A DNA stretch of 64,000 nt, taken from positions 124,001 through 188,000 of the forward strand of contig NZ_CP047026.1 of assembly GCF_009796785.1 (NCBI RefSeq), given 5' to 3'. A program made the translations under genes and the position numbers. Positions 2,781 through 21,603 of this stretch are shown here, in pieces. Source of the DNA: Polaribacter sp. L3A8 (GTDB taxonomy: Bacteria; Bacteroidota; Bacteroidia; Flavobacteriales; Flavobacteriaceae). Position 1 is the stretch's first letter. Each line of letters opens with the position of its first letter. A model generated the notes under the pieces. The model was not told the origin of the DNA. It did not search any database and saw only the letters and a program-made list of their open reading frames with translations.

Positions 2781-2826
2781 GATGAAAATATTTCATCGAT
2801 ACTTTTCTGCACTTCATCGATACTTT
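2781..2826. promoter_or_regulatory. Direct and inverted repeat cluster before the signalling operon
   Basis: TTCATCGATACTTT occurs twice (2792-2805 and 2813-2826) with an exact 21-bp period. The first copy also forms a perfect inverted repeat with GATGAAA at 2781-2787. Direct repeats two helical turns apart are the usual layout of LytTR binding sites, and the operon downstream ends with a LytTR regulator. The repeat is seen; the link to that regulator is an inference. Confidence 0.55.
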
Positions 2827-2845
2827 AATTTGTGTGACCAACTAC

Positions 2846-2879
2846 TTGTAAAAGACATTTTTTTATTAACTTAGATTTG
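2846..2879 (+). promoter_or_regulatory. Putative Bacteroidota promoter of the H-NOX/FIST operon
   Basis: TAGATTTG at 2872-2879 fits the TAnnTTTG -7 box, with a TTG at 2846-2848 in the -33 position. Transcription would start near 2886. This excludes the ATG at 2877 and supports the start at 2907 for the first gene. Confidence 0.5.
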
Positions 2880-2906: not shown

Positions 2907-3320
2907 ATGTCTAAAAATTTGAAAGTATTGTTAATTGAAGATAACCTAATTGAAATAATGAAAATGAAAAGAACACTTTCATTATTAAAATTAGACCATA
3001 CAATGCAGGAAGCTAAAAATGGTGAAGTAGCATTAGAAATTTTACAAGATAAAAGTAATTTCCCTGATTTAATTTTATTAGATTTAAACATGCCTAAAAT
3101 GAGTGGAATAGAATTTCTATCGATCTTAAAAAAGGATGAAAATATACAACATATTCCTACCGTAATATTAACCACTTCAGATAATCAAAAAGATTTAGAA
3201 GAATGTTATAAATTAGGTGTTTCTGGTTACATTTTAAAGCCACTAAAATATGATGATTATGTTAAAAAGATTGAAACAGTGCTGTCTTATTGGAGTGTGA
3301 ATGAACTAAAAAAATACTAA
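2907..3320 (+). CDS. Single-domain response regulator (CheY/Rcp1-like)
   Basis: A lone receiver domain of 137 residues with no output domain, so it probably acts as a phosphate shuttle or binds a partner protein. LLIEDN supplies the acidic pocket, LLDLNMP carries the phospho-acceptor Asp (residue 59 from this start), and the family Thr and Lys (TTSD, LKP) follow. I prefer the ATG at 2907 over the one at 2877, because homology begins here and the predicted promoter overlaps 2877. It is the first gene of the signalling operon, ending 2 bp before the H-NOX gene. Possible phosphodonors are the two kinases downstream. Confidence 0.85.
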   Translation: MSKNLKVLLIEDNLIEIMKMKRTLSLLKLDHTMQEAKNGEVALEILQDKSNFPDLILLDLNMPKMSGIEFLSILKKDENIQHIPTVILTTSDNQKDLEECYKLGVSGYILKPLKYDDYVKKIETVLSYWSVNELKKY

Positions 3321-3322
3321 TT

Positions 3323-3862
3323 ATGAAAGGAATTGTTTTTACAGAATTTTTAGATCTAGTAGAAGAAAAGTTTGGTTTAGAAATGGTTGATAAAATTATT
3401 TATCAATCAGAATTAGCATCAGAAGGAATTTATACATCTGTAGGAACATACAGCTTTTCTGAAATGTTGCAATTAGTAACAAACTTAAGTGATAACACAG
3501 GTATTTCTACGGATAATTTGCTTTTGGTTTATGCAGAGCACTTTTTTGGAATGATAGAAAGAAGTTATCCAGGTCTTTTAGCAACCTATAAAGACCCAAT
3601 AGAAATGTTGGCTTCTATTGAAAATCATATACATGTAGAGGTGCAGAAAATTTACCCAGAAGCAGAATTGCCAACATTTATTGTAGAAGAAAAAACAGAA
3701 AATTCTTTAACAATGGTGTATAAGTCTAGTAGAGCAATGCATCATTTTGGATTGGGGTTAATGAATAAAACTTTCGAGCATTTTAATACAGAGGCATCTA
3801 TTGTTTTAGAAAAAATAAAGGAAGATGGTACAAAGGTTCGATTTATTGTTAATAAAAAATAA
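3323..3862 (+). CDS. H-NOX (HNOB) haem nitric-oxide-binding protein
   Basis: Stand-alone H-NOX domain of 179 residues, the family's normal length. The proximal haem ligand is His104, within the segment IHVEVQKIYPEAELP, which fits the IHxxVxxxYPxAxxPxF pattern. The haem-propionate motif Y-x-S-x-R is Y133, S135, R137. Facultative bacteria use such proteins to sense NO and modulate a partner histidine kinase. Its stop codon overlaps the start of the PAS kinase gene (TAATG), as in known hnoX-kinase pairs. The order receiver, H-NOX, kinase, FIST, kinase, Hpt, LytTR points to one phosphorelay. NO rather than O2 as ligand is an inference. Confidence 0.92.
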   Translation: MKGIVFTEFLDLVEEKFGLEMVDKIIYQSELASEGIYTSVGTYSFSEMLQLVTNLSDNTGISTDNLLLVYAEHFFGMIERSYPGLLATYKDPIEMLASIENHIHVEVQKIYPEAELPTFIVEEKTENSLTMVYKSSRAMHHFGLGLMNKTFEHFNTEASIVLEKIKEDGTKVRFIVNKK

Positions 3863-5844
3863 TGAGTCAACATCAAATAGAAATACTAGAACGAGCACTA
3901 AAACGTGAAAAATCCGCAAGAAAAGCTGCAGAAAAAATTCTAGAGGATAAATCTAGAGATTTATATGAGCTTTCAGAAGAATTAAAAGGTTCTAATATAA
4001 AGTTAAATGAACTTTTAGAAGAAAAATCTTCTACATTAAAAGGAGTATTTGATAACATTAATGATGCATATCTAGTAATGGATTTGTTTGGTAATGTTTT
4101 AAAAATGAATGAGGTTGCTGTAGGTCTTTTTGGTTATGATATTGAAATAGAAAATTTTAATGTAACAGAAATTATTTATCCAGAAGATGTAGAATATACT
4201 TATAAATCTTTTACAGAATTATATGAAAAAGGTTTTTTTAATGGTTTTACAGCAAGAATTTATACTAAAAATAAAGAAATTAAATGGGTGCAAATAAATG
4301 CAACTGTTGTTTATAATAAAGAAAATAAAGCAATTGCAGCACAAGGTATTATTAGAGATATTACTAAAGAAAAAGAAGAAGAATATTTATTAGTAGAGTC
4401 AGAAAATAGATTAGCAGCACTTGTGTTAAACCTAAATAGTGGTATTATTTTAGAAGATGAAAATCGAAAAATAGTATTATCGAATACAAAGTTTTGCGAA
4501 TTATTTAAAGTAGATGCAAAACCTCAAGATTTATTTGGGATGGACTGCAAAATGGCTTCAGAACAAAATAAGGTTTTATTTAAAGAACCAGCATTGTTTG
4601 TAACAAGAATGGATGAAATAGTAGCCGCTAAAAAATCTGTTTTTGGAGAGCAATTAGAAATGATAGATGGGGTAATTCTCGAAAGAAATTACATTCCAAT
4701 ATTTATTGAAGGAAAAATAAAAGGCTTTTTATGGACCTTTAGAGATATTACCTTAGAAAAAAAATACAGCTTAAGTTTAGAAAGTGAAAAAGAGAAATAT
4801 AGCAGTATAATTGCCAATATGAATTTAGGTTTGGTAGAGATTAATACAGATGATGAAATTTCGATGGTAAATCAAAGTTTTTTAGAAATGTCTGGGTATG
4901 CCAAAGAAGAATTAATAGGAAAAGTAGGCCGTGATATTTTTGCATTTAACGATAGTTCAAATGTTGTAAAAGATCAAAAAGAAAAACGTCTTAAAGGAGA
5001 ATCTACCTCTTATGAATTTAAGACAAAAAATAAAAGTGGAGAAACTAAATATTGGTTGGTAAGTGCTGCACCAAATTATAATTTGTTGGGAGAAAATATA
5101 GGTTCTATTGCTTTGAATCTAGATATTACTAAATTTAAAAGGTTGCAATTACAAAAAGAGCAAATTTTAAAGGAATTAGAAAAAAGTAATGAACATTTAC
5201 ATGAATATGCGCATATTGTTTCTCACGATTTAAAATCGCCACTTAGAAGTATTGACGCATTGGTTTCTTGGATTAAAGCAGATAATGAAGGTAAGTTTGA
5301 TGAAGTAACACTACAAAATTTTGGTCTTGTAGAAACTACTTTAGAAACCATGGAAAAACTAATTTCTGATGTTTTAGAATATTCTAGTGCAGGTTCTAGT
5401 ACAGAAGAATATGAAGATGTAGATTTAAATAATACGTTATCAGATTTAAAAAAGATATTATTTATTCCAGAAAACATAGCTGTTAATGTCTTAAAAAAAT
5501 TACCAATTGTTAAAGGAGATAAGACTAAGTTTCAACAATTATTTCAAAACTTTATAAGCAATGCAATTAAATTTTGCGACAAAGAAATAGGTGTTGTAGA
5601 AATTGATTATAAAGAAGATTTTACTTTTTATCAATTTTCTATAAGAGATAATGGTATTGGAATTGAAGAAAAATATCATGATAAAATTTTTGAAGTTTTT
5701 ACCTCTTTAAACAAAAGAGAAGATTCAACAGGAATAGGGCTGTCAATTGTTAAAAAAATAGTTGACTTATATAAGGGAGTTATTTGGTTAGAAAGTGAGC
5801 CAAATAAAGGAACTACTTTTTACTTTACCATAAAAAAAACTTAA
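3862..5844 (+). CDS. PAS-domain sensor histidine kinase, H-NOX partner
   Basis: Soluble 660-residue kinase with no signal peptide or membrane segment. An N-terminal coiled coil (about 1-60) is followed by three PAS domains (roughly 60-175, 185-300, 310-430). Then come a HisKA segment with the phospho-His in HIVSHDLKSPL (about 450) and a HATPase_c domain with NAIKF, DNGIGI and STGIGLSIVKK (about 540-660). The start overlaps the H-NOX stop by one base. A cytoplasmic kinase beside a stand-alone H-NOX is the classic arrangement, in which NO-bound H-NOX inhibits autophosphorylation. The phosphoryl group could go to the lone receiver or, through Hpt, to the LytTR regulator. Confidence 0.9.
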   Translation: MSQHQIEILERALKREKSARKAAEKILEDKSRDLYELSEELKGSNIKLNELLEEKSSTLKGVFDNINDAYLVMDLFGNVLKMNEVAVGLFGYDIEIENFNVTEIIYPEDVEYTYKSFTELYEKGFFNGFTARIYTKNKEIKWVQINATVVYNKENKAIAAQGIIRDITKEKEEEYLLVESENRLAALVLNLNSGIILEDENRKIVLSNTKFCELFKVDAKPQDLFGMDCKMASEQNKVLFKEPALFVTRMDEIVAAKKSVFGEQLEMIDGVILERNYIPIFIEGKIKGFLWTFRDITLEKKYSLSLESEKEKYSSIIANMNLGLVEINTDDEISMVNQSFLEMSGYAKEELIGKVGRDIFAFNDSSNVVKDQKEKRLKGESTSYEFKTKNKSGETKYWLVSAAPNYNLLGENIGSIALNLDITKFKRLQLQKEQILKELEKSNEHLHEYAHIVSHDLKSPLRSIDALVSWIKADNEGKFDEVTLQNFGLVETTLETMEKLISDVLEYSSAGSSTEEYEDVDLNNTLSDLKKILFIPENIAVNVLKKLPIVKGDKTKFQQLFQNFISNAIKFCDKEIGVVEIDYKEDFTFYQFSIRDNGIGIEEKYHDKIFEVFTSLNKREDSTGIGLSIVKKIVDLYKGVIWLESEPNKGTTFYFTIKKT

Positions 5845-6990
5845 ATGAAAACCGTACAACTTAAAAAACATAAAAACTCTGATTGGAAATATTTATCAGA
5901 AAATACCCCTCTAAAAGCACCCTTAGTACTCGTTTTTGGAAATAGATTTTTATTGGAAGATAAAACTATTTTTGATGAAATTAGGGATAAATTTAAAGAC
6001 GGACATATTGTATTTGGTTCTGCTTGTGGTGATATTTCATCAGAGTCTATAGATGATGAAAGTATTACAATCACAGCAATAGAATTTGAAAAAAGTAATT
6101 TTATAATTAAAACTACAAATGTTTTAAACTCAAATTCAGACTCTAAAGTAGATAGTTTTTCTGTAGGTAAAGATTTAATTAGCCAATTTTCTCAAGAAGG
6201 TTTAAAGCACGTTTTTGTTGTTTCTGAAGGAAGTTTTATAAACGGAAGTCAATTAACAAGAGGTATGAATGCTGCCACAGAAAATAATTTATTAATTACT
6301 GGTGCTCTTTGTGGAGATGATGCTCGATTTGAAAAAACGATATCTTCTTACAACGAAAACCCAAAAGCAGGAGAAATAGTGGCTATTGGCTTGTATGGTG
6401 AGTCTTTAGAGATTACATTTTCTATTAACGGCGGTTGGACACCTTTTGGACCAGAAAGAATTGTAACAAAATCAGAAGGAAATACGTTATATGAATTAGA
6501 TAACTTACCTGCATTAGATTTATATAAGAAATATTTAGGAGAAAAATCTAAAGAATTGCCAGGTGCAGCTTTATTGTATCCATTAAATGTAAAAACAGAA
6601 GATGGACATAACACCATTGTAAGAAGTATTTTAAATATAGATGAAGAAGAAAATTCTATGATTTTGGCAGGTGATATTTTAGAGAATTCTAAAGTACAAT
6701 TAATGATGACCAATGTAGATAATATTGTAAATGCAGCAGAAAAAGCGGCTAAAAATGCTTTAGAGTTTAGAAACAAGAAACCAGAATTAGCTATTTTAGT
6801 AAGTTGTATAGGTAGAAAACTAGTTTTAGACCAAAGAGTAGAAGAAGAAGTAGAAGAGGTAATGGAAGTTGTAGGAGATGCAACAACAATAACAGGGTTG
6901 TATTCTTACGGAGAAATAGCGCCTTTTATAGGAGAAAATAGTTGTGAATTACATAACCAAACAATGACAGTTACACTAATTAGCGAATAA
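5845..6990 (+). CDS. FIST-domain sensor protein (NosP-like candidate)
   Basis: A 381-residue protein made only of FIST N (about 35-215) and FIST C (about 225-365) domains. Recognisable features are FGSACGDISS near 55-65, the ITGALCGDDARF segment and the C-terminal ITGLYSYGEIAPF signature of FIST C. FIST proteins are intracellular sensors. A subset called NosP binds haem and NO and controls an adjacent kinase through a phosphorelay. Several His residues are present, but I cannot say which, if any, binds haem. It abuts one kinase gene and overlaps the next by one base, so it is plausibly the sensor for the kinase at 6990-8033. Confidence 0.85.
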   Translation: MKTVQLKKHKNSDWKYLSENTPLKAPLVLVFGNRFLLEDKTIFDEIRDKFKDGHIVFGSACGDISSESIDDESITITAIEFEKSNFIIKTTNVLNSNSDSKVDSFSVGKDLISQFSQEGLKHVFVVSEGSFINGSQLTRGMNAATENNLLITGALCGDDARFEKTISSYNENPKAGEIVAIGLYGESLEITFSINGGWTPFGPERIVTKSEGNTLYELDNLPALDLYKKYLGEKSKELPGAALLYPLNVKTEDGHNTIVRSILNIDEEENSMILAGDILENSKVQLMMTNVDNIVNAAEKAAKNALEFRNKKPELAILVSCIGRKLVLDQRVEEEVEEVMEVVGDATTITGLYSYGEIAPFIGENSCELHNQTMTVTLISE

Positions 6991-8033
6991 TGAATTCTTT
7001 ATTAAAAAGACAAATAAGAAAATATCTACCCAAAGAATTGCAGTCTAACGCAGAGTTAGAACAATTCTTAGAGGCTATTGATAAATCTTATAGCACTTCA
7101 GAAGAGCAGTTTTTAATGCTTCAGAGAGCTACAACATTTAGTTCTGAAGAGCTGTTTTGTGCTAATGAACAATTAAGAGAAGAATCTGATTCTCAAAAAA
7201 AAGTAATCTCAAAATTAGAAAGTGTCATAGACAAATTACAGTTCTATGATTTAAAGAATAATCGTCCTAAAGAAAGTGTAGATTCTTTAAAATTGGTTGA
7301 TTTTATAGACAATCAAACCAAAGAAATTATTAAAATTAATCAACAAAAAGACAAACTTTTAAGAAATTTAGAGCGCCAAAATCAAGAATTAAATGATTAT
7401 GCGCACATGGTTTCTCACGATTTAAAATCGCCTTTGCAAAGTATAGAGGCTTTAACGGCATGGGTTTTAGAAGATTATTCTGGTGTGTTAGATGATACCG
7501 GTAAAGAGAATTTACAATTTATTAGAGATAATGTAGAAAAAATGGATACACTTGTAAAAGGTATTTTACAATATTCTACCATTGGTAAAATTGAAAAAGA
7601 TTTTTATGATGTAAGTATAGATACTTTAGTAGATGAAATTTTAAATAATAAAGAAATATCAAATACGGCTACTTTTAGTATTCCAGAAAAATTACCAACT
7701 ATAAAAGGAGATAAATTTAGGTTAAACCAATTATTTAAGCATTTAATAAATAATGCTGTAAAATTTAATGATAAAGAAGCTAAAACAGTAGAAATTGGCT
7801 TTAAAGAAACGCCTGATTTTTGGAGATTTTATATAAAAGATAATGGTAACGGAATTGATCGTAAGTATTTTGATAAAATATTTGTGGCATTTCAAAAATT
7901 AGAAGATGATTATCAGTCTACAGGAATAGGTTTATCTATCGTAAAAAAGATTGTAGAAGTATATAAAGGAGAAATTTATTTAGAATCTGAGCCAGAAGTA
8001 GGCTCTACTTTTTATTTTAGCATAAAAAAATAA
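6990..8033 (+). CDS. Soluble sensor histidine kinase, FIST partner
   Basis: A 347-residue kinase without membrane segments. The N-terminal 130 residues are mostly helical and coiled coil (RQIRKYLPKEL, then long charged heptads). HisKA carries its His in HMVSHDLKSPLQ (about 142). HATPase_c shows NAVKF, DNGNGID and STGIGLSIVKK. The kinase core is a close paralogue of the 3862-5844 kinase, but the PAS domains are replaced by the coiled coil, so input must come from a partner. It overlaps the FIST gene by one base, which makes FIST the obvious input. Confidence 0.88.
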   Translation: MNSLLKRQIRKYLPKELQSNAELEQFLEAIDKSYSTSEEQFLMLQRATTFSSEELFCANEQLREESDSQKKVISKLESVIDKLQFYDLKNNRPKESVDSLKLVDFIDNQTKEIIKINQQKDKLLRNLERQNQELNDYAHMVSHDLKSPLQSIEALTAWVLEDYSGVLDDTGKENLQFIRDNVEKMDTLVKGILQYSTIGKIEKDFYDVSIDTLVDEILNNKEISNTATFSIPEKLPTIKGDKFRLNQLFKHLINNAVKFNDKEAKTVEIGFKETPDFWRFYIKDNGNGIDRKYFDKIFVAFQKLEDDYQSTGIGLSIVKKIVEVYKGEIYLESEPEVGSTFYFSIKK

Positions 8034-8035
8034 AG

Positions 8036-8353
8036 ATGGAACAACCAAATTTAGAATACATAGAACAGTTAGCAAGAGGAGACGAATCTATTAGAAATGA
8101 GTTAATAGACGTTATTAAAACAGAGTTTCCAGATGAAAAGAAAGAGTACTATGATTACCTAGAAAAGAAAGAATTTAAAAAAATAGAAGAAAGTGTTCAT
8201 AAACTTAAACATAAAATTAGTATTTTAGGTCTCGAAAAGAGTTACGAAATTGCTAATGAGTTTGAACACAACCTTCGGGAACTAAGTTTAGAGAAACAAG
8301 AAGATTTTGAAAAAATTTTAAAAGCAATTACAGCGTATATAGAAACTATATAA
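8036..8353 (+). CDS. Histidine phosphotransfer (Hpt) protein
   Basis: Small helical protein of 105 residues. The Hpt signature is VHKLKHKISILG, with phospho-accepting His55 and the usual Lys and Gly. It is encoded between a kinase and a LytTR response regulator, with 2 and 5 bp gaps. Neither kinase in the operon carries its own receiver domain, so the lone receiver at 2907-3320 may be the intermediate that passes phosphate to this protein before the LytTR regulator. Confidence 0.85.
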   Translation: MEQPNLEYIEQLARGDESIRNELIDVIKTEFPDEKKEYYDYLEKKEFKKIEESVHKLKHKISILGLEKSYEIANEFEHNLRELSLEKQEDFEKILKAITAYIETI

Positions 8354-8358
8354 GTTTT

Positions 8359-9069
8359 ATGAATTGTATTATTATTGATGATGAAAAAATGGCAAGGGTT
8401 ATAATTAAAACCTTATGCAATGAAATAGATTCTTTAATTATTTTAGAAGAGTTTCCTAGTGCCATACAAGCAATAAAATATTTGAATGAAAATGAAGTAG
8501 ATTTAATCTTCTTAGACATCCATATGCCCAATTTTAGTGGTCTAGATTTTATTAGAAGTCTAAAAAATCCACCAAAAATTATTTTAACAACATCAGATCC
8601 AAAATTTGCTATAGAAGCTTTTGAGTACGATTTTATAGTAGATTATTTATTAAAGCCAGTAGAATTGCCACGTTTTAAAAAAGCAATTGAAAAGGCAGAG
8701 AGAAAAAATATTTCAGTAGCTACTTCAGCTAAACAAATTGCTAAAACTAAAGATACAGAAAACGATTTTTATGTGAATATAGATCGTAGATTAATAAAAA
8801 TAGATTTACCAAGTATTTATTTAATAGAAGCAAAAGGCGATTATATTAAAATAAAAACAGAAAGTAAAGATTATACAGTGCATTCTACACTTAAAAAAAT
8901 AGAAGAAAAACTTCCCGATTCTTTATTCCTAAAAATACACCGTTCGTACATTATCAATATTAAAAAAATTATAGATATTGAAGACAACAGTGTTTTAATC
9001 AAAAAAGATGTTATTCCTGTGAGTAGGTCTAAGCGTCCAGAATTAATGAAAAGACTAGATTTACTTTAA
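8359..9069 (+). CDS. LytTR-family response regulator
   Basis: A 236-residue DNA-binding regulator. The receiver (1-120) has IIDDEK, phospho-acceptor Asp53 in FLDIHMP and Lys in LLKPVEL. A linker leads to a LytTR domain (about 138-234) with YLIEAKGDYIKI and FLKIHRSYIINIKKI. It is the last gene of the signalling operon and the only one with a DNA-binding output. The 21-bp-spaced direct repeat upstream of the operon (2792-2826) fits the spacing expected for a LytTR dimer, which would imply autoregulation. Confidence 0.92.
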   Translation: MNCIIIDDEKMARVIIKTLCNEIDSLIILEEFPSAIQAIKYLNENEVDLIFLDIHMPNFSGLDFIRSLKNPPKIILTTSDPKFAIEAFEYDFIVDYLLKPVELPRFKKAIEKAERKNISVATSAKQIAKTKDTENDFYVNIDRRLIKIDLPSIYLIEAKGDYIKIKTESKDYTVHSTLKKIEEKLPDSLFLKIHRSYIINIKKIIDIEDNSVLIKKDVIPVSRSKRPELMKRLDLL

Positions 9070-9167
9070 TGTTTGTCTAAACAAGTCTTACAACTCATCT
9101 ATAGTTAAAGTGTTAGTGGCTAAAAGTTACTAAATCTACTTTACTTCGTGCTTATTTTTGTGATATA

Positions 9168-10856
9168 ATGAAACATATCATAAAAAAAATATTGCTAATT
9201 CTCCTTTTTGTAACAATAGGAAACACCATTGCTCAATCAGACAAAAGTAATTTTGTTAGTGCAGAAAGTGTGAAAATTAAGGGACTAAAATTTAATAAGC
9301 AACAACTTTATAAAAAGACTCCTAAAAATTCTTTCATAGAGTATTTACCAGAAACAGGAATAAATCATACAGAAACAGCATTTGTTTCTATTTCAGAAAA
9401 ACTGGTCGTTAATAAAAATATAAAAGATTTTTTATCGGTAGTTTATTATCAAAGAGAACATAAAGTAGCTTCGGTTGTAGCAACAAAAACGGAAGGCGCT
9501 GTTTACAATCATTATAAAGAGATTTGTAATCGATTAAATGGAGCTAGTTTAGATAGTATTAGTACTGTTTTAGTAAAAGAGCATCAAGTAATAAAATCTA
9601 AAATACATAATGTTTCTGGTAAAGTTGAATATACTTTAAGTTTTTCAATTAAAGTAGATACCAATGATAACGAATTATTTAGTTTTTGGAATATAGACCA
9701 ATATCCTACAGGTGATTATCAAAATTATTTAATTTGGGGAAGTTCTTACGCTCAAGTTTATGCAATCGCAAATTATGTTATAGAGCAATATGCCTTAAAA
9801 GGTGGACTTAAAAGTAAGGTCATAGAAAATGTATTACCAAATGTTTTTGTAAAAACAGGAAGTTACTCTAATGGTATTGTTCATTTAAATCTAATCAATA
9901 GAACTCAAGAAAAAGCAGTTAATTTTGTTGGTAATATAGCAGATACAGAAGTTTCAGAACATGTTAAAGCAGCAAATACTTTTTCACTCTCTGGAGATTA
10001 TAATGAAGTACTATCTATAGAAACAGGTGTTTTATTTGATATTGGCTTTTATTTAGAAACAGCTTCGTCTAACCAAAAAGATGCCTTGTATCTAGCAGAT
10101 GGACCTTGGGGTTTAGATTATTTAAAAGAATATGCAATGGTTTCAAATTTCGAAATAAAAACTTTTGAAAGAGAGTTTAAGGAAGCTGTTTATGAAGTAG
10201 AGCGAAGTGTTAAAGCTGTTGGAGAGGTGAAAGGAAATATTAATTTATTTAGACACCTTTTACCTGAAAACAAAACTTTAAATGTGGTTAAATATGACTT
10301 TCTTAATTTTAATATTAGAAATAATGAGCCTGTAGAAATAATACTTATGTCTGGCGAAGATAGAGCTTGGGAAAATAGGTTACGTTATACAATTCCTGCA
10401 AATTCAAAAGAAAAAAGATATAGTGTTTCTTTTTCAGATTTTGTAGATCATCTAGGGAATAAAGCAGTAATTACAGATATTAAAACTATTGTATTTTCTA
10501 TTATAGGAGATTACACCAATTACAAACCTTTTAATTTTGATATAAATCAAATAGCATTCACAACAAATAGTACTTTAAGTACAGATGATGTTATTGTAAA
10601 AAATAATAACAAGTTAAAAAATTACCCAAATCCTTTTACAAGTTCTACAACAATTCTACTACCAACTGCAACTAATGATATTCAAATTAAAGTTTTTGAT
10701 GTAATGGGTAGAGTAGTAGATATTCAAAAAATAAGCAGCCGTTCTTCTTTTACAAAAGTACAATACAATGCTCCTCAATTAAAAAAAGGAGTTTATAAAT
10801 ATAGCCTAATTGACGATACAAAAAGTCAACATTCTGGAACATTTATCGTCAACTAG
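9168..10856 (+). CDS. Secreted protein with T9SS type A sorting domain, function unknown
   Basis: A 562-residue protein with a signal peptide (KKILLILLFVTIGNTIAQ). The C-terminal Por/T9SS sorting domain (about 485-562) shows the NYPNPF motif, KVFDVMGRVV, KKGVYKYSL and a final GTFIVN. The middle is not a family I recognise. Residues about 365-470 end in a stretch (SFSDFVDHLG, TIVFSIIGDYTNY) that looks like a jelly-roll carbohydrate-binding fold. It is predicted to be exported by the type IX system to the surface or medium. It lies 98 bp after the LytTR gene on the same strand, so it may be a target. A TATTTTTG box at 9153-9160 could be its own promoter. Confidence 0.75.
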   Translation: MKHIIKKILLILLFVTIGNTIAQSDKSNFVSAESVKIKGLKFNKQQLYKKTPKNSFIEYLPETGINHTETAFVSISEKLVVNKNIKDFLSVVYYQREHKVASVVATKTEGAVYNHYKEICNRLNGASLDSISTVLVKEHQVIKSKIHNVSGKVEYTLSFSIKVDTNDNELFSFWNIDQYPTGDYQNYLIWGSSYAQVYAIANYVIEQYALKGGLKSKVIENVLPNVFVKTGSYSNGIVHLNLINRTQEKAVNFVGNIADTEVSEHVKAANTFSLSGDYNEVLSIETGVLFDIGFYLETASSNQKDALYLADGPWGLDYLKEYAMVSNFEIKTFEREFKEAVYEVERSVKAVGEVKGNINLFRHLLPENKTLNVVKYDFLNFNIRNNEPVEIILMSGEDRAWENRLRYTIPANSKEKRYSVSFSDFVDHLGNKAVITDIKTIVFSIIGDYTNYKPFNFDINQIAFTTNSTLSTDDVIVKNNNKLKNYPNPFTSSTTILLPTATNDIQIKVFDVMGRVVDIQKISSRSSFTKVQYNAPQLKKGVYKYSLIDDTKSQHSGTFIVN

Positions 10857-12980: not shown

Positions 12981-13210
12981 TGATTTTGTTTTTTGTATTG
13001 GCAAGTTAAGCAATAGTAATTAATCATTAAACTATATAAAAGTGTTTTTCAACGTCTTTAGAGATTCTTTTTAAGGGAACTAAGTGATATTTGCTTAGAA
13101 TTATAGAAAAAGAGAAATAATTTTAAATAATAATGCAAATACGCATTAATGTAAAGTTATTTATGATTAATTTAAAGAACGCAAAATAGCTTAATAAAAA
13201 GATACATAAT

Positions 13211-14479
13211 ATGCAAGAAGTTATACGATTTGTAAAAAACAAAATTAAGCCAGAACAAGTATTTATGTTAAGTGTTCTCTTGGTAAATGGAGGGAACTAC
13301 ATTTATAATTTAGTTTTAGGAAGAGTTTTAGGACCCGAAAAATTTGCAGATGCAGCCATTTTAATTACTTTTTTATTAGTGTTGTCTTTTGTTGCCATGA
13401 CGTTTCAATTGGTAACAGCTAAGTTTTCTGTACTTTTTGAAGATTCAATATTTAGTGGCTTTATTTCTAAAATATATAAAAATGCGCTAATTACCGGCAT
13501 CTTCTTAGGAATTGCAATAATTGTTTTTTCTACGCAATTACAGCACTTTTTTAAAACAACTTCTTCAACCATGTTTGTTATTTTTGGTTTTGGAGTTCCG
13601 TTTTACTTTTTAATGAGTGTTAACAGAGGTGTTTTTCAAGGGAAGCAAGAATTAAAATCTTTATCAGTAACCTATCAATCAGAAATGATTAGTCGTTTAT
13701 TGTTAACCTTTGCGTTGTTATATTTTTTAGATATAGATTCCTCTTTAATTATAGCAATCGGTATTTTTTGCTCTTTTATTTTTGGATTGATTCCTTTTAG
13801 AACTAGCAATTTTTCTTTATTTAAACCTTTTTCATTAGCAGCTGATAATAAAAAATTAGTAAAAAATTTCTTTATAATAACGGCTTTTTATGAGTTAACT
13901 CAGATTATTATAAATAACAGTGATATTTTATTGGTAAAACATTATTTTGAGTCTTACGAAGCAGGTTTGTATGCATCTTTGGCTTTAATTGGTAGAGTAG
14001 TCTATTTTATTGCTTGGATGTTTGTAATGTTGTTATTACCAACTGTTGTTCAGCTTAAAAAAGAAGGGGAAGAGACCTTGCCAATTTTATTAAAATATGT
14101 TGCCTATATTGGTTTTATTGCTGCGGCTATTGTGATTAGTTGTTTTCTTTTTCCGAATGAAATAATTAAAATATTATTTGGTAGCGAATACTTGTCAGTA
14201 GCACCATTGTTATGGAAGTATGCATCTGCAACAGGAGTTTTTGCCATCTCAAATATATTTGCTTACTATTATTTATCATTAGATAAATATGTACCTGTTG
14301 TACTTTCTGGAATTTTTGGAATGTTGCAAATAGTGTTAGTTGTTCTTTTTCATGAATCATTAGAACAAGTGGTTCATGTGCAAATTATAGCAATGGTATT
14401 GTTATTAATAGTGCAACTTAGTTTCTTCTTTTTTAAAGATTCTAAACCAACAGAGGCTATTAAAGAAACAGCGGAATAG
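13211..14479 (+). CDS. Polysaccharide flippase-like membrane protein (Wzx/PelG type)
   Basis: A 422-residue integral membrane protein with about twelve hydrophobic segments and the MATE/PST-like N-terminus (LVNGGNYIYNLVLGRVLGPEKFADAA). GVPFYFLMSVNRGVFQGKQ and DILLVKHYFESYEAGLYA are characteristic of Wzx-type transporters. It would move lipid-linked or nascent polysaccharide across the inner membrane. A GT4 glycosyltransferase follows 111 bp downstream, the same pairing as PelG-PelF. Assignment to the MOP superfamily is firm; the Pel comparison is inference. Confidence 0.85.
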   Translation: MQEVIRFVKNKIKPEQVFMLSVLLVNGGNYIYNLVLGRVLGPEKFADAAILITFLLVLSFVAMTFQLVTAKFSVLFEDSIFSGFISKIYKNALITGIFLGIAIIVFSTQLQHFFKTTSSTMFVIFGFGVPFYFLMSVNRGVFQGKQELKSLSVTYQSEMISRLLLTFALLYFLDIDSSLIIAIGIFCSFIFGLIPFRTSNFSLFKPFSLAADNKKLVKNFFIITAFYELTQIIINNSDILLVKHYFESYEAGLYASLALIGRVVYFIAWMFVMLLLPTVVQLKKEGEETLPILLKYVAYIGFIAAAIVISCFLFPNEIIKILFGSEYLSVAPLLWKYASATGVFAISNIFAYYYLSLDKYVPVVLSGIFGMLQIVLVVLFHESLEQVVHVQIIAMVLLLIVQLSFFFFKDSKPTEAIKETAE

Positions 14480-14590
14480 TATTATCTAAACCTATTTTCC
14501 AATCATCTATATATAATTGCATTTGAGCAGCTTATCTAAAAGAAAATAAAGTAAAAACCTCAAATTTGTAGTATCATAAAAAAAAAGAAT

Positions 14591-15772
14591 ATGAAATTAG
14601 CCATCGTAACAGCATACCCACCAAGTAAAGTAACTTTAAATGAATACGCGTATCATTTAGTTAAGAGCTTTAGACAAAGTGAAAAAGTAAGTGAATTAAT
14701 TTTGTTAACAGACGAAACGCCAGAAGGAAAAGATATTAACTTTACAGAGAATGGATGCAAAATTACGGTAAAAGAATGCTGGAAATTTAATAGCTATGTA
14801 AACATTATAAATGTTACCAAAGCTATTAATTTAACAAAACCAGATGCTATATTGTTTAACTTACAGTTTATGAAGTTTGGTGATAAAAAAGTGGCTGCAG
14901 CTTTAGGTTTGGCAATACCAATGGTGTGTAAAATTAAAAAAATACCAACTATTGTTTTATTACACAATATTTTAGAGCAAGTAGATTTAGAAAGTGCAGG
15001 TTTTACCTCGAATAAATTGGCTCAAAAAGTATATAATTTTATTGGTACATCTTTAACCAAATTAATTTTAAAAGCAGATTTAGTGGCTGTAACTATGGAT
15101 AAATATGTTACTACTTTGGTTGATAAATACAAGGTAGATAATGTGAAAATGATTCCTCACGGAACTTTTGAAATTCCAGAAAATCCGTCTCAAGAATTGC
15201 CTGAAGGTCCTTTAAAAATTATGACTTTTGGTAAGTTCGGAACTTACAAAAAAGTAGAATCTATGATTGAGGCTGTAGAATTGGTAAGAAAAGAAACAGG
15301 CTTAGATTTAGAAATTGTAATTGCAGGAACAGACAACCCAAATGTACCTGGTTATTTAGAAAATGCACAAGAAACTTATAAGCATGTACCGCAACTTACT
15401 TTTACAGGATATGTAGAAGAAGAAGAAGTAGCACCTTTGTTTACAGAAAGTGCCGTAGTTGTTTTTCCGTATACGTCTACAACAGGTAGTTCTGGAGTAT
15501 TACACCAAGCAGGTAGTTATGGTAGAGCAGTAGTAATGCCTAATTTAGGTGATTTAGCTACTTTAATTGAAGATGAAGGCTATAGAGGTGAGTTTTTTGA
15601 ACCAGAAAGTGTAGTAAGTTTGGCAAATGCAATTAAGGCAATTGTAACTAATGATGCATATAGAATTCAATTAGGGGAAGCTAATTACAAGGCTGCAACG
15701 GCGTTTCCTATGGAAAGAATTACAAATATTTATTTAGACGAATTCAATAAAATTATTGCTAAAAAGAAATAA
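14591..15772 (+). CDS. GT4-family glycosyltransferase
   Basis: A 393-residue cytoplasmic GT-B enzyme. The N-terminal domain opens with LAIVTAYPPSKVTLNEYA. The C-terminal Rossmann half contains KIMTFGKFGTYKKVESMI, LEIVIAGTDN, FTGYVEEEEVAPLF and the donor-site stretch ending in GSSGVLHQAGSYGRAVV. It should transfer a sugar from a nucleotide donor onto a growing polysaccharide. It pairs with the flippase upstream. The donor sugar cannot be read from sequence; the GDP-mannose route is possible because manA closes the locus. Confidence 0.88.
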   Translation: MKLAIVTAYPPSKVTLNEYAYHLVKSFRQSEKVSELILLTDETPEGKDINFTENGCKITVKECWKFNSYVNIINVTKAINLTKPDAILFNLQFMKFGDKKVAAALGLAIPMVCKIKKIPTIVLLHNILEQVDLESAGFTSNKLAQKVYNFIGTSLTKLILKADLVAVTMDKYVTTLVDKYKVDNVKMIPHGTFEIPENPSQELPEGPLKIMTFGKFGTYKKVESMIEAVELVRKETGLDLEIVIAGTDNPNVPGYLENAQETYKHVPQLTFTGYVEEEEVAPLFTESAVVVFPYTSTTGSSGVLHQAGSYGRAVVMPNLGDLATLIEDEGYRGEFFEPESVVSLANAIKAIVTNDAYRIQLGEANYKAATAFPMERITNIYLDEFNKIIAKKK

Positions 15773-17303: not shown

Positions 17304-18514
17304 AATTTAAAACTTTTAAACTCTTTTTTTATTCCTGCGGTTTCAATATAAATTGTGTACAAATTATTTTCAAAAATATTTGGATCTAAGTAAAAACTTG
17401 CAAATCCATTTTGAGATTCTTTAAAAAGCTCACTAACAAGTGTATCGTTTTTGTAAATGGTTAGTTTTACAGACAATCCATCCGGAATTATTTGATTCAT
17501 AAAACTTTTTAATGGGCCTACTTTTATAGTTCTGTTATTATCTAAGAAAGCAACTTGGTAATCTTCTATTACTTTTTTGTATTTAATTTTTAAAACGTTA
17601 CTCTCTGCAATACCAATAAAATACGCTTTTATACTCCATTGATCTTCAAAATCTGGATGAATAATTTTTGCATGAGCAACCCCATTTAATGTAGTACCTG
17701 TTGTTTTTAAAATACCACCGTTTTTATTGGTGATATAAAATTCTACATAACTACCATCACTTACAATATTGTTGTTTTTATCTTTTATGGTAGCGGTATA
17801 CAAGGTTGTTATTTGATTACCATCTGCATATTCATGATTTCTACTCACATAGATTTTAAAATTTGTAGCGATGGCAGGCATAATATTTACATCAAATTCT
17901 TTAGAATTTAAACCAAAAGATTCTGATGAAATAATCATTCTTCCACTTTTTTTAGGCGAATAAATATTTCTGTATCCAATTAATTTATCGGTTGAAATAG
18001 CTTTTGATGTTTCTGATTTTAAAAACTGATATTTTACATCAACTTTACTATCATCTAAAATAGGATTATCTAAACTATCTGTTGGTATCACGACTAACAT
18101 GGTGTAATCTAAACCACCAGCATCTATACTTGGTGGACCTAAATAAGTTTCTATTGATGCTGGTTGGTGCAGAGAATTAATGGTGATATTCCCCGAAATA
18201 TCTTCTGCTGCATTGATGATTTTCCAAGATAAAATGCCTCTTTTTTTGGATAGAAATTTAGGGATTTCAAAGACCGTTTTTTCATTTGTAATTGTAGGTT
18301 CTAAAACGGTTGCACCATAACTATTAGCACAATATAATTGATAAATAGAATCGGTTTGTACGGTAAACTCTAGTATAATTTTATCATTTACATTAAAAGT
18401 GTTTTTTGTTGATAGTAAAGAAATAGAAGCTTGCTTAGTGGTTGTTTCTTGCGCAAAGAAAGAAACAATGACTACTTGTAAAATGGTTAGCAAAAAAAGT
18501 TTTTTTAATTTCAT
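17297..18514 (-). CDS. Exported Ig-like protein of the polysaccharide operon, function unknown
   Basis: A 405-residue protein with a signal peptide (KLFLLTILQVVIVSFFAQ). The body is beta-rich and reads like consecutive Ig-like or invasin/macroglobulin-type domains: KIILEFTVQTDSIYQLY; TLYTATIKDKNNNIVSDGSY; a last domain with FASFYLDPNIFENNLYTIY. No catalytic motif is seen. It overlaps both neighbouring genes (7 bp and 1 bp), so it is tightly co-translated with the GH5-like protein and the large membrane protein and probably works with them in the periplasm. Confidence 0.65.
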   Translation of the reverse strand: MKLKKLFLLTILQVVIVSFFAQETTTKQASISLLSTKNTFNVNDKIILEFTVQTDSIYQLYCANSYGATVLEPTITNEKTVFEIPKFLSKKRGILSWKIINAAEDISGNITINSLHQPASIETYLGPPSIDAGGLDYTMLVVIPTDSLDNPILDDSKVDVKYQFLKSETSKAISTDKLIGYRNIYSPKKSGRMIISSESFGLNSKEFDVNIMPAIATNFKIYVSRNHEYADGNQITTLYTATIKDKNNNIVSDGSYVEFYITNKNGGILKTTGTTLNGVAHAKIIHPDFEDQWSIKAYFIGIAESNVLKIKYKKVIEDYQVAFLDNNRTIKVGPLKSFMNQIIPDGLSVKLTIYKNDTLVSELFKESQNGFASFYLDPNIFENNLYTIYIETAGIKKEFKSFKLW

Positions 18515-21500
18515 TATTTTGGATTACCGATATACATACTTAATTCTATTTTAATATAACTAAAAAGCGGATGTTCTACTTTTTGCAAATTACCAATGGT
18601 CTGATTTTTAATTCTGTTTGGCATTATTTTAAAGGCAATATCTTTATTAGGCAATCCATTTACAAAACAAAAACTCATATCATCATTAATTATTTTGATG
18701 GTTGGGTTTAATGGTATTGGGTAGCTAAAACGGAGTTTACGCTCTTGACGTATTCCTTCTTTTAAAAATAAATTATCTACCCAAATCATTTCTTTATTTT
18801 CGTTGTAAAAAGTAATAATCATTTGCGGAACCGTAATTTCTTGAATTCCGCTATTAAATAAAGTTCCGTTAATTTGATTTGGAGTGATGCTTATTTCACT
18901 TAAAACAATGTCTTTAAATAAATCTGAATTAGTTGTGTTTCCTGCGGCTTGTAAATTAAACTTTGTAGGTTGTTCACTTAATTCCACAGGTGTAAATTCG
19001 TCTGGATTAAATGTTTTAGGAATTGAATCTTTGGTTTTAGACCAAGCAATACCTTCAAAATTAATTCTAAAAGCACTAATTTCTTTAGGCATTAATTTAT
19101 GCTTTAAAATATGCTTTGCATTGTAGGTTGCTAATTCTTTATTATCGTCATTATAAAGTGTCCCTTTTAAAACAACATCTGCAGGTACATTGTCTATATT
19201 TTGTACTTCGCCAATAATAGCATAGCGTTTGTTAAATTTTATCAGTTTGGCAGAAACAATCTCTAAAACAGGTTGTTTTAAAACATCTTCATGATGCGTT
19301 TGTTCTGTAGTAATTCTTCTTCTACCTTGATTAAAATAACCTGTAGTATTTTTAGAATAGAGTTGGTCTGGTGGTAAATCTATCGATTTTCTTGTAGGCT
19401 TTAAATACCATTTTCCTTTTCTTTTAACGGCCGTTTTAATTTCGGTTTTAGATAGTTTTTCTAAAGGCGTAATCCATTTGGTTTCTACTTTTAAAGTAGC
19501 CATACTATCCGTTTCTTTTTTTATTTCTGTGGTAATTGCATCTAATTTTGCATACGAACTTAGCAAACCATCAGTAACAGAAATTTCTAATAAATATTGA
19601 GCGCGTGTAAGTTCATCCTCTGGATCTATATAAGTAAAACTTTTATTCAATTCTTTAAAATCGATGGCATCATAATAAGCTTTTACAACATTTTCTGGAG
19701 ACCTTTGTGTTTCGTTTTTAATATAAAACATATAACACGCATAGGCAATTACAAAGATTAAAACCACTGCCCAAATATGCAATGCTCTTAAAACAATTCT
19801 AGGAAATTTAAGGTAGTCTACTTTAAATTTAAAATAAACAGGTACAGCTTTTACTTTTGTTTTTAAGCCATTTACAAACAAGGATTGTACATTTAAAATA
19901 AAGGCAATTAAAACCGTTAAAAAAGGAATGACACCCCAAATTATTTTTACCCAAGCAGGCACATCTTCTTTAGGTAAGATTGAAGAAATAGGAGGGACGT
20001 TCAATTTTTCCCAAACCATAATTCCGTTTTCTAACTGAGATAAACGCTGCCATCCGCAGAAAAATAAAACCGGATCGTAAAATTTATCATTCGAAAAAAT
20101 ATATTTTAAATTGTATTTTTCTGGCGTAGTTAAAAATTGTTGTAAAGAACCAATACCCGCAACTCCTTTAAATTTAGAGTTTTCTAAACGTTCTATAGGT
20201 CTTGTTGTTAACTCGGGTAAACGTCTTGCAGAGTGGTAATTACCATCTACACTCATGGCATTTGTTTGCGCTGCTAACCAAGCCATTTGATCTCCAAAAC
20301 CGAGTGTTAAATACCGCCACTGATCATGAGAATCTTGACTCAAAAAATTAACAATAGGTAGCATTTTTATTTTTTGAGGTTGAGACGGTCTAAAGTATCC
20401 TAAACTCATAGTAAAAATAACCATAGAAACATAAGCACCCGCTAAAAGTCCACCTAATAATCGATGATAAACGGCTCCGAATTTATCTTGAATTAATGTT
20501 TTTAAATCTCCTTCTACAAATCGGTAAATAAATTCACCAAATATTGGTATCGACATGATAGAACCCCAAAGCGTAAACCTATCTAAGGTTAAAATATTAA
20601 AGGCTGTTTCTCCTAATATTATTTTAGGTATAGGTGTTGTTCCACCCGTTCCTAAAATAACCAACATTGTAAAAGACAAACCAAAAAATAAATAACGTTT
20701 GCTAAAATATCTGTAAAATATATACGGTAGAATAAATAATAAAATTCCCCATGGAATGGTAAAAAACACCAAACCAGAAGAAGTTACCTCAATAAAACTA
20801 TCTCTAGAGCCATGCGGAATTGGTACTTGTGTAATGGGGTTTAATTTTGAATTCATCCAATAGGGAAAAATGCAAAAAATAATAAGGAATAAAGAAGAGA
20901 AACCAAACGCTAAGTTTTTCTTCAATTGTTTCATAAATGTTTTTAGAAATAATAAAAGCGTAACCTCTTTATAAGAGTCTACTTCTTCTCTAGCAACATC
21001 CATAATTACAGTTCCTATTAAGGGAAAAATAAAAAATAACATTCCAAATATAGGCGTAACATGATGAGAGGTTACGGTAACGGCAATTAAAGAAAGGGAA
21101 GTGAAAAAGAATTTATACTTACCCGTTTTAAGCCATAAATAAATTTCGGGTAACGAATGCATTAAAACTGAAACACCAATAATACTCGGCAATTGACCAA
21201 AAATATGCAAGGTTTCTACAAAAGATGAAGAGAAAACGGCTAAAATAGCTGCATAACCTGCAACCGTTCTGTTAGATGTTATCAATAAAGAATATCTATA
21301 AGATCCGGTAACAAAAAGAACAATAGCAATTAAGGCCACTGTAAACATTCCGAATTTTAATCCTCCAATTAAGGATAAAGCACCAATGGTTTGATGTACT
21401 AAAGGCGGGTAACTCTGTACCGTAAAACCAGTATACCACTTGTAATTCCAAGGTTCAAACCAACTGTGGGCATAATGGTCTGCAAAAAATAAATGAATTA

Positions 21501-21603
21501 AAGCATCATATGTAGTTTCTAAGGTAAAGAAAATAGAAGAACCATGAAATAGTACCGCTAATAGAATTGCAGTAATTAAGTATTTATTAGATTTTTCTTT
21601 CAT
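18514..21603 (-). CDS. Large polytopic membrane protein, PTPS-related / GT-C-like
   Basis: A 1029-residue protein. The first 400 residues hold roughly ten or more membrane helices with an early loop (ETTYDALIHLFFADHYAHSWF) typical of the '6-pyruvoyl-tetrahydropterin synthase-related' membrane family, which looks like GT-C glycosyltransferases. Two more membrane helices lie near 550 and 610. The remaining 400 residues are soluble and beta-rich, with NTF2-like (ENVVKAYYDAIDFKELNK) and FxLyD-like (AIIGEVQNIDNVPADVVLKG) segments. It is the first gene of the minus-strand operon and is divergent from the receiver-GT2 gene. A role in polymer assembly is inferred from context. Confidence 0.7.
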   Translation of the reverse strand: MKEKSNKYLITAILLAVLFHGSSIFFTLETTYDALIHLFFADHYAHSWFEPWNYKWYTGFTVQSYPPLVHQTIGALSLIGGLKFGMFTVALIAIVLFVTGSYRYSLLITSNRTVAGYAAILAVFSSSFVETLHIFGQLPSIIGVSVLMHSLPEIYLWLKTGKYKFFFTSLSLIAVTVTSHHVTPIFGMLFFIFPLIGTVIMDVAREEVDSYKEVTLLLFLKTFMKQLKKNLAFGFSSLFLIIFCIFPYWMNSKLNPITQVPIPHGSRDSFIEVTSSGLVFFTIPWGILLFILPYIFYRYFSKRYLFFGLSFTMLVILGTGGTTPIPKIILGETAFNILTLDRFTLWGSIMSIPIFGEFIYRFVEGDLKTLIQDKFGAVYHRLLGGLLAGAYVSMVIFTMSLGYFRPSQPQKIKMLPIVNFLSQDSHDQWRYLTLGFGDQMAWLAAQTNAMSVDGNYHSARRLPELTTRPIERLENSKFKGVAGIGSLQQFLTTPEKYNLKYIFSNDKFYDPVLFFCGWQRLSQLENGIMVWEKLNVPPISSILPKEDVPAWVKIIWGVIPFLTVLIAFILNVQSLFVNGLKTKVKAVPVYFKFKVDYLKFPRIVLRALHIWAVVLIFVIAYACYMFYIKNETQRSPENVVKAYYDAIDFKELNKSFTYIDPEDELTRAQYLLEISVTDGLLSSYAKLDAITTEIKKETDSMATLKVETKWITPLEKLSKTEIKTAVKRKGKWYLKPTRKSIDLPPDQLYSKNTTGYFNQGRRRITTEQTHHEDVLKQPVLEIVSAKLIKFNKRYAIIGEVQNIDNVPADVVLKGTLYNDDNKELATYNAKHILKHKLMPKEISAFRINFEGIAWSKTKDSIPKTFNPDEFTPVELSEQPTKFNLQAAGNTTNSDLFKDIVLSEISITPNQINGTLFNSGIQEITVPQMIITFYNENKEMIWVDNLFLKEGIRQERKLRFSYPIPLNPTIKIINDDMSFCFVNGLPNKDIAFKIMPNRIKNQTIGNLQKVEHPLFSYIKIELSMYIGNPK

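Follow-up and report, generated by a model that had tools for sequence, protein, structure and literature searches.

A seven-gene Polaribacter operon that probably encodes a modular phosphorelay with H-NOX and FIST input cassettes and a LytTR output

INTRODUCTION

Do two different sensors, each beside its own histidine kinase, feed one phosphorelay, and what would such a relay control? The question is raised by a seven-gene operon of Polaribacter sp. L3A8 (NCBI RefSeq assembly GCF_009796785.1, contig NZ_CP047026.1, positions 124,001 to 188,000 of the forward strand; this whole stretch of 64,000 nucleotides [nt] is called the window below). An earlier sequence-only reading had proposed that an H-NOX protein and a FIST protein, the latter of the class that includes the nitric oxide (NO) sensor NosP, together with two kinases, a lone receiver, an Hpt protein and a LytTR regulator, form a compact dual-input NO circuit. 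Bacterial H-NOX and NosP signaling is known mainly from proteobacteria and from cyclic di-GMP (c-di-GMP). In this work, the operon was compared with its relatives among the Flavobacteriaceae. The earlier interpretation is too narrow, and the operon is one form of a modular relay that is widespread in the family, with a candidate operator and with exopolysaccharide genes as its predicted regulon. As a whole, a modular phosphorelay with two input cassettes, acting through the LytTR regulator on its own operon and on exopolysaccharide genes, is judged a reasonably probable explanation of the locus.

RESULTS

The seven genes were located on the forward strand at positions 2907 to 9069, all intact and in the order receiver, H-NOX, first kinase (HKa), FIST, second kinase (HKb), Hpt and LytTR regulator, with gaps or overlaps of only -1 to +5 nt between them (Table 1). 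The coordinates, gene order and domain calls of the sequence-only reading were correct, with Pfam scores above the gathering cut-offs. Three PAS stretches, HisKA and HATPase were detected above the gathering cut-off in HKa, and HisKA and HATPase without PAS in HKb, while the Hpt call was barely above its Pfam cut-off (26.9 versus 24.6 bits). The phosphoacceptors were invariant across the aligned operons, including the Asp of the receiver (76/76), the His of HKa (79/79), HKb (39/39) and Hpt (74/74), and the receiver Asp of the LytTR protein (70/70), and the His-Asp-His-Asp residue set of a multistep phosphorelay is complete and conserved in the operon. No GGDEF, EAL or HD-GYP partner was found in the operon by Pfam, and the LytTR regulator is the sole output encoded there. 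The functional unit extends 5' of position 2907 to an operator and a promoter-like box, and the probable targets of the relay reach to about 22.9 kb in the window. When four of the seven operon proteins were compared with a library of defense systems, a single weak match was obtained, to the receiver part of the LytTR protein.

The modular character of the operon was revealed by the gain and loss of its parts. Neighborhoods were taken from 40 of 57 paired, 40 of 51 H-NOX-only and 20 of 36 FIST-only cases, and the window was added; one of the 81 H-NOX loci (L132) was dropped for want of an H-NOX open frame, and 80 operons were analyzed. FIST together with two kinases was present in 39 operons, and another 39 had no FIST after H-NOX and one kinase (p = 8e-22); the remaining two had a FIST with one kinase and neither, respectively. 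The operons without the FIST-HKb cassette typically consisted of receiver, H-NOX, HKa, Hpt and LytTR. In a rapidly built tree of the proteins shared by 70 operons (35 with and 35 without the cassette), at least 14 changes of cassette state were required, at least 5 of which were forced by well supported branches, although 27 of the 67 inner branches were weak and three rows had long branches. Since shuffled labels needed 23.7 changes on average, the presence of the cassette is clustered on the tree. In two operons (G118 and G267) the FIST-HKb slot was filled by a divergent FIST and a kinase without the adaptor of HKb described below, and in a genome of the same genus as the window (G567) FIST-HKb stood at a separate place behind an operator-like pair of 17.9 bits. 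The H-NOX is likewise a second plug-in of the relay, as judged from gene content: receiver, kinase, Hpt and LytTR genes with no H-NOX found genome-wide occurred in five genomes (G005, G082, G115, G279 and G283), and such an H-NOX-less core occurred in a divergent arrangement in two more (G238 and G277).

The two kinases were further distinguished by their N-terminal regions, here termed adaptors A (HKa) and B (HKb). Non-iterated models were built from one half of the kinases and tried on the held-out half. Adaptor A was detected in 39 of 39 held-out kinases next to H-NOX and in none of the 19 next to FIST; adaptor B was detected in 17 of 19 kinases next to FIST and in none of the 39 next to H-NOX; neither was found in 18 other kinase frames of the Polaribacter sp. 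L3A8 genome (one kinase entered twice). In FIST kinases from elsewhere, adaptor B was present in 16 of 18, and 14 of 18 gave a weak A-like match with a median of 19.5 bits. The seven H-NOX-less cores scored 0, 0, 2.6, 10.1, 15.5, 29.1 and 41.5 bits for adaptor A, versus a median of 86 bits beside H-NOX. Two genomes were set aside in this comparison, G048 (101.7 bits, kinase 140 nt from a contig end) and G197 (57.6 bits, H-NOX elsewhere in the genome), and five were uncounted (G062, G129, G147, G170 and G278, with the kinase cut or probably cut at a contig end, or another gene order), none of which gave a match to adaptor A. Homology of adaptors A and B had been suggested by a drifted iterated model of B that matched kinases next to H-NOX; those counts were dropped, and direct profile comparison gave a match of only 15 columns at 15% probability. 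Taken together, the co-loss of sensor and kinase and the sensor-specific adaptors support the proposed pairing of H-NOX with HKa and of FIST with HKb, which very probably holds as it was stated. A separate FIST-kinase locus (L141-L159; kinase of about 580 amino acids [aa]) has adaptor B, no operator and different neighbors.

The candidate output site was identified as a tandem direct repeat upstream of the receiver gene, with the consensus CATTCGTC(G/T)ACACTTAA. Of 80 operons, 70 had the repeat; its period was 21 bp in 66 of the 70, and it mostly lay about 90 to 130 nt before the start codon. None of 1,600 shuffled upstream regions reached 12 bits. Across the fetched loci, 278 sites of at least 14 bits were found, versus 1 with the reversed matrix and 0 to 2 with five permuted matrices; none lay in a called gene, though coding DNA made up 90%. 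The spacing of the pair in strong cases was 21 bp in 96, 22 bp in 4 and 17 bp in 2. The operator also tracked the regulator, being present in 65 of 70 operons with LytTR and in 2 of 7 without it (p = 2e-4; three contig-edge loci set aside), and at 10 bits it was found in none of 16 FIST-kinase loci away from H-NOX. In LytTR regulators of the AgrA and YpdB type, two direct repeats about two helical turns apart lie next to the promoter. The arrangement described here resembles such tandem repeats and differs in its gas-sensor phosphorelay input and its predicted flavobacterial exopolysaccharide regulon. Binding of the LytTR protein to the repeat at its own promoter is predicted with good confidence.

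A Bacteroidota-type -7 box with an exact TAnnTTTG was found 44 nt after the operator, with a possible -33 element (Table 1), the Bacteroidota promoter having a -7/-33 consensus. The commonest distance in relatives was 40 to 44 nt (23 of the 52 operons matching at least 5 of 6 positions; 62 scanned). By frequency the box is weak, with 5 or 6 of 6 positions in 52 of 62 operons versus 731 of 1,240 shuffles, and it stands out mainly by its distance. The position of the operator would fit an activator, the sign of the effect being inferred. A third repeat at +42/43 was ruled out by strongly negative mean scores. A pattern search of the Polaribacter sp. L3A8 genome with an 8-base gap gave no match, the actual gap being 7, and a position matrix and model R1 were used instead. 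S-nitrosylation has been proposed for the LytTR DNA-binding domain of AgrA in a passage of PMC6769237; it is unlikely here, because the two cysteines, at positions 3 and 20, lie outside the DNA-binding domain.

The operator was then a guide to the predicted regulon. A genome-wide model built from 50 operators was run on 149 family genomes with stricter filters (E ≤ 1e-3) and gave 70 matches, of which 37 lay at the operon promoter (model-training sites among them), 21 downstream on the same strand within 35 kb, 1 on the opposite strand, 3 far away and 8 on other contigs. In the fetched loci, 271 distinct sites led to 201 genes, and 28 sites had no gene start within 350 nt. By similarity, the operator-led genes comprised 85 of receiver type (operon receivers and fusions of a receiver to glycosyltransferase family 2 [GT2]), 28 of a type sorted by the type IX secretion system (T9SS; 809 to 949 aa), 26 STAS, 17 glycosyltransferase family 4 (GT4), 9 flippase and 5 CAP type genes, 4 UDP-sugar dehydrogenase-like genes (named by eye) and 27 others in 18 small groups; the domain names of these groups rest on single members. 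The window carries a comparable cluster, its genes standing in the same order, with a T9SS protein, a TPR protein, a flippase, a GT4 enzyme, a glycosidase-like protein, a receiver-GT2 fusion and a phosphomannose isomerase. The kinship of its 562-aa T9SS protein to the family of 809 to 949 aa was judged by position and sorting tail. Each site in the window was compared with 2,000 mononucleotide shuffles of its region (Table 1), and the highest score among 10 other promoters located beyond 25 kb was -8.9 bits. These results supported the proposal that LytTR takes the place of a c-di-GMP output and extended it by a candidate operator and a predicted regulon: exopolysaccharide and surface genes are likely LytTR targets across the family, and somewhat less securely, with the balance still in favor, in this genome.

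The distribution of the two sensors was determined in 299 genomes of the family, taken as Flavobacteriaceae from named relatives. HNOB was present in 105 and FIST in 87, with both in 68, H-NOX only in 37 and FIST only in 19 (odds ratio 17 per genome, p = 3e-23). The sequence-only reading had called for a search for conserved co-occurrence, and this was found: H-NOX and FIST genes on the same strand with starts no more than 3.3 kb apart occurred in 58 of the 299 genomes, FIST coming first in one. Outside the family, in 286 genomes among 295 of the class (many assemblies fragmented), H-NOX was present in 50, FIST in 81 and both in 27; the same-strand arrangement within 3.3 kb was found in 0 of the 286, and no such pair lay within 10 kb in any of the 27 dual genomes. 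One outside genome had H-NOX and FIST 2 kb apart on opposite strands, with the FIST broken. Among 80 named loci found by FIST similarity, which may overlap the 299-genome sample, the exact seven-gene order was kept in 70, one more had a second FIST-kinase pair, and an operator of at least 12 bits was present in 67 of the 76 with upstream sequence.

For the H-NOX, the proposed intact proximal His104 and Y-x-S-x-R motif were borne out. The HNOB score was 136.6 bits against a cut-off of 25.5, and His104, Tyr133, Ser135 and Arg137 (Y133-x-S135-x-R137) were each invariant in 80 of 80 aligned proteins, the window's own included. At the site that we take to correspond to Tyr140 of the Caldanaerobacter protein (Cs), the distal Tyr that stabilizes O2, Phe142 was found by ungapped offset from the motif, and this column held Phe in 57 and Leu in 23 of the 80 proteins. 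The His and Y-x-S-x-R residues without a distal O2-stabilizing Tyr are the pattern of NO-selective H-NOX proteins, and the window H-NOX lacks this Tyr. The nearest PDB chain, 6bdd, is the H-NOX of Kordia algicida OT-1, identical over 179 residues; the window protein shares 148 of 178 residues with it (83%), and the Kordia algicida gene sits within the same seven-gene operon. The H-NOX is predicted with high confidence to sense NO. In 10 of 81 loci, nitrite/sulfite reductase-like genes were observed upstream of H-NOX at a distance of no more than 4 kb; one locus (L105, 1042-5999) and nine others carried genes resembling those for nitrate reductase and nitrite/sulfite reductase ahead of the operon. 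Such assimilation-type nitrate and nitrite genes would be a plausible internal NO source.

Both FIST domains were above cut-off in the second sensor (133.7 and 126 bits), and the protein shares 97% identity with its counterparts in P. butkevichii and P. staleyi. The stop codon of FIST overlaps the start codon of HKb by 1 nt, and the gene arrangement agrees with the co-transcription of the NosP class at the gene level. No PDB relative was found by sequence search up to E 1, and structure prediction with 25 near relatives was of low confidence (mean predicted local distance difference test score 52.4, predicted template modeling score 0.48). Cys156 was present in 37 of 40 operon FIST proteins (2 Ala, 1 gap), versus Ala in 20 of 22 FIST proteins away from H-NOX, and it is at most a candidate for redox or heme chemistry. 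The two operons with a divergent FIST (G118 and G267) are probably the two rows without Cys156.

TABLE 1 Features of the operon and its predicted targets in the window
Feature	Position	Strand	Evidence
Candidate LytTR operator, direct repeats ATTTCATCGATACTTTT / ACTTCATCGATACTTTA, 21 bp apart	2790..2827	+	25.6 bits, 0/2000 shuffles
Bacteroidota-type -7 box TAGATTTG; TTG at 2846-2848 as possible -33	2872..2879	+	exact TAnnTTTG
Lone receiver, CheY-like, Asp59	2907..3320	+	Response_reg 83.1 bits
H-NOX heme NO sensor (predicted)	3323..3862	+	HNOB 136.6 bits; nearest PDB 6bdd, E 2.3e-97
HKa, H-NOX-associated PAS histidine kinase, N-terminal adaptor A (residues ~5-59)	3862..5844	+	Pfam
FIST sensor, NosP-like by domain only	5845..6990	+	FIST 133.7, FIST_C 126 bits
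HKb, FIST-associated histidine kinase, adaptor B within residues 1-100	6990..8033	+	Pfam
Hpt phosphotransfer protein, His55	8036..8353	+	Hpt 26.9 bits
Receiver-LytTR transcription regulator, Asp53	8359..9069	+	LytTR 78.0, Response_reg 65.7 bits
Weaker operator before T9SS-sorted protein, spacing 22	9070..9108	+	17.3 bits, 0/2000 shuffles
T9SS-sorted secreted protein, 562 aa, predicted target	9168..10856	+	Por_Secre_tail; T9SS type of 809-949 aa operator-led in 28 genomes
Degenerate operator-like pair before flippase	13025..13062	+	0.4 bits, 2/2000 shuffles
Polysaccharide flippase (Polysacc_synt), predicted target	13211..14479	+	
Degenerate operator before GT4 gene	14479..14516	+	6.3 bits, 1/2000 shuffles; model R1 12.6 bits, E 0.78
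Glycosyltransferase family 4, predicted target	14591..15772	+	GT4 type operator-led in 17 genomes
1029-aa protein	18514..21603	-	
Degenerate operator-like pair before receiver-GT2 fusion	21663..21700	+	2.2 bits, 1/2000 shuffles
Receiver-GT2 fusion, predicted target, possible second output	21785..22939	+	Response_reg 83.9, Glycos_transf_2 70.6 bits

DISCUSSION

The best explanation of the operon is a multistep phosphorelay built from modules, two of them input cassettes that can be plugged in, and the following course is proposed for it. NO bound by H-NOX would control HKa, and the ligand of FIST (heme with NO, heme itself or a small molecule) would control HKb, with the sensor-specific adaptors A and B as the docking sites for the respective sensors. 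From either kinase, phosphate would pass to the lone receiver and then through Hpt to the LytTR regulator. This regulator would bind the direct repeat of 21-bp period just upstream of the promoter and control both the operon that encodes it and the linked genes for exopolysaccharide and surface proteins, without recourse to c-di-GMP. If the kinases behave like some of those that act with H-NOX or NosP elsewhere, NO may reduce their activity and thereby alter matrix production, although the sign varies among known systems.

Several observations weigh against this explanation. In two genomes (G050 and G002) the FIST-kinase pair had moved from the operon and had no operator, and two H-NOX-less genomes retained a weaker adaptor A (29 and 41.5 bits). 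Five operons with LytTR lacked the repeat, and in three genera (G011, G172 and G227) the operon stopped at Hpt, with neither LytTR nor repeat. Apart from the operon and T9SS sites, the operators in the window are weak (0.4 to 6.3 bits). When the whole window was scanned at spacing 21 with a matrix from the nearest named relatives, only the operon site exceeded the maxima of five shuffled windows (5.4 to 12.6 bits), and in the Polaribacter sp. L3A8 genome the genome-wide model placed only this site below E 0.01 (E 3e-5; next 0.045). The four targets in the window thus retain operator sites that are eroded yet still recognizable. The genome also contains a second receiver-Hpt-LytTR set and an orphan kinase, and the wiring may be broader than the operon. 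Finally, the FIST protein scored 55.7 bits on the NosP equivalog of NCBIfam against a cut-off of 450, and its invariant His370 and Cys321 were just as constant among the FIST proteins away from H-NOX (22 of 22). Because of the spacing-21 scan and the moved FIST-kinase pairs without an operator, the overall confidence was trimmed slightly.

That unrelated two-component genes lie together by chance is refuted by the same-strand H-NOX and FIST in 58 of 299 genomes, the complete seven-gene order in 70 of 80 named loci and the behavior of the cassettes, and this view retains practically no probability. The two kinases might instead be co-transcribed without converging, with HKa serving the lone receiver as a separate output or phosphate sink and just one kinase serving Hpt and LytTR. 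One locus (L140) fits this, with Hpt and LytTR kept and no lone receiver beside H-NOX. However, where the cassette is missing, the operon still has its receiver, Hpt and LytTR, which leaves HKa as the sole operon kinase to serve them, and by kinase core HKa and HKb rank among the nearest relatives of each other in the genome, so that separate wiring appears unlikely. The catalytic core of HKb matched an orphan membrane kinase (at ~501 kb) at 48%, HKa at 47% and the next kinase at 35%; from this close kinship, both operon kinases probably share the receiver, and because the rest of the relay persists in operons that lack FIST-HKb, the simplest view of HKb is that of an added input. The shared receiver-Hpt-LytTR relay put forward by the sequence-only reading is backed only by linkage and invariant residues, and convergence of both kinases on it is probable. 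The orphan membrane kinase, HK3 (L339, ~500.9-503.2 kb, minus strand, with HK_sensor_dom_bact and PAS), may be a third input or the partner of the second receiver-Hpt-LytTR set (L315, 8532-10009, at ~3.76 Mb), beside which no kinase and no operator of at least 14 bits were found in the 13 kb examined. The repeats might also be bound by another LytTR protein, such as that of this paralogous set, the operon regulator having other targets. The presence of such a set speaks for it; against it, the repeat is gone in the three genera without an operon LytTR, 65 of 70 operons that encode one have it, operator sites cluster beside the H-NOX operon, and the paralogous set lacks a strong site of its own, which makes binding by another regulator quite improbable and leaves the operon's LytTR protein as the preferred candidate.

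The ligand of FIST is more finely balanced. The NosP-like assignment of the sequence-only reading stands at the level of the FIST and FIST_C domains, and it fails at the equivalog cut-off, which was missed widely. As His370 and Cys321 are invariant in FIST proteins away from H-NOX too, they mark the FIST family rather than heme binding. The dual-input NO circuit is only a hypothesis, because the cut-off was missed and no heme ligand can be read from the protein. A response of FIST to NO is conceivable, falling a little short of an even chance, and the rival view, that the module reads a cue besides NO (heme itself, redox state or a small metabolite) and that the relay combines NO with an unrelated cue, stands at the same tentative level; a circuit of NO and some other second input matches the data about equally well. 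The low equivalog score, the Cys156 of operon FIST proteins where others mostly carry Ala, and the genomes with FIST only (19/299) or H-NOX only (37/299), in which each sensor exists without the other, favor a different cue. NO is favored by the NosP proteins of several proteobacteria, for which heme binding and NO response beside sensorless kinases are reported in passages of PMC12570481 and PMC6769237, and by FIST accompanying the NO sensor far above chance within the family.

Compared with known systems, the novelty of the H-NOX and FIST linkage was partly anticipated. FIST genes within five genes of H-NOX are given for group 1 of a published H-NOX neighborhood network (PMC8738867); the section on this network describes neither an operon or cassette nor any kinase pairing, and gives no operator or regulon. 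The Kordia algicida H-NOX, of the same family, has been crystallized (6bdd/6bde) and is handled in a passage of PMC7356049 as a stand-alone gas-binding domain. In the H-NOX/kinase systems of Vibrio, Shewanella and Legionella (Hnox2), a stand-alone H-NOX gene adjoins a kinase, as here. LuxU is an Hpt protein. A relay from HqsK to LuxU in an H-NOX system is described in part of PMC8738867, and the pairing of Legionella Hnox2 with a kinase and a lone CheY-like receiver in part of PMC11237717. The outputs given in these passages are c-di-GMP enzymes, quorum sensing or unassigned, whereas the present operon includes LytTR and a second sensor cassette. In the NosP/NahK systems (NosK, VpsS), as a passage of PMC12570481 describes, the FIST protein is co-transcribed with a kinase that has no recognized sensory domain and about 130 residues before DHp; the present case differs in the missed NosP cut-off, an HKb without its own receiver, and the lack of a c-di-GMP-type response regulator in the operon.

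H-NOX and NosP genes of dual-sensor organisms are generally known from separate loci, and Shewanella has both pathways. For Vibrio cholerae, part of PMC8738867 describes H-NOX and NosP as two heme sensors with crossing pathways, and for Legionella three receptor genes in three different regions are given in part of PMC11237717. Here, both sensors and the relay are in a single operon. A literature search, mostly without reach into subscription papers, returned no title or abstract opening that describes such an operon; it found nothing on H-NOX together with Polaribacter, and for H-NOX with LytTR a discussion of AgrA in part of PMC6769237.

We regard as evenly poised the broader proposal that Flavobacteriaceae share a fixed receiver-Hpt-LytTR socket, into which sensor-kinase cassettes would have been plugged and unplugged in evolution, setting the transcription of exopolysaccharide and surface-protein genes without c-di-GMP. 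The cassettes would be H-NOX-HKa, FIST-HKb, a variant FIST-kinase pair in two genera and perhaps HK3; the socket would integrate gas and other signals and possibly tune glycosyltransferase activity via the receiver-GT2 fusion. If true, a major group of marine polysaccharide degraders would possess a compact alternative that acts through transcription. From the comparison come a candidate operator with its predicted regulon, two kinase adaptors that differ from each other, and a set of operons that naturally have or lack each sensor; the operon set and the adaptors make it directly testable how a separate heme protein controls a soluble kinase. The question of the FIST ligand becomes concrete, namely whether a FIST protein that travels with an NO sensor binds NO, and the structurally solved H-NOX of 6bdd is placed in a signaling context.

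Some further features were observed around these operons. Hpt-terminated operons of three genera (L081, L084 and L093) possibly have a rewired output. The 1029-aa protein encoded on the reverse strand of the window cluster had no Pfam or NCBIfam match, and proteins of the same length occur in the clusters of many relatives. In another genome (L280, 7755-8340), two small tandem proteins, the first with a STAS domain, are encoded behind an operator just before a flippase, and similar genes account for 26 operator-linked cases. A receiver fused to a bacterial sugar transferase was found in a further genome (L290, 4273-5457); direct phospho-control of polysaccharide enzymes by such fusions, including the receiver-GT2 fusion of the window, is possible.

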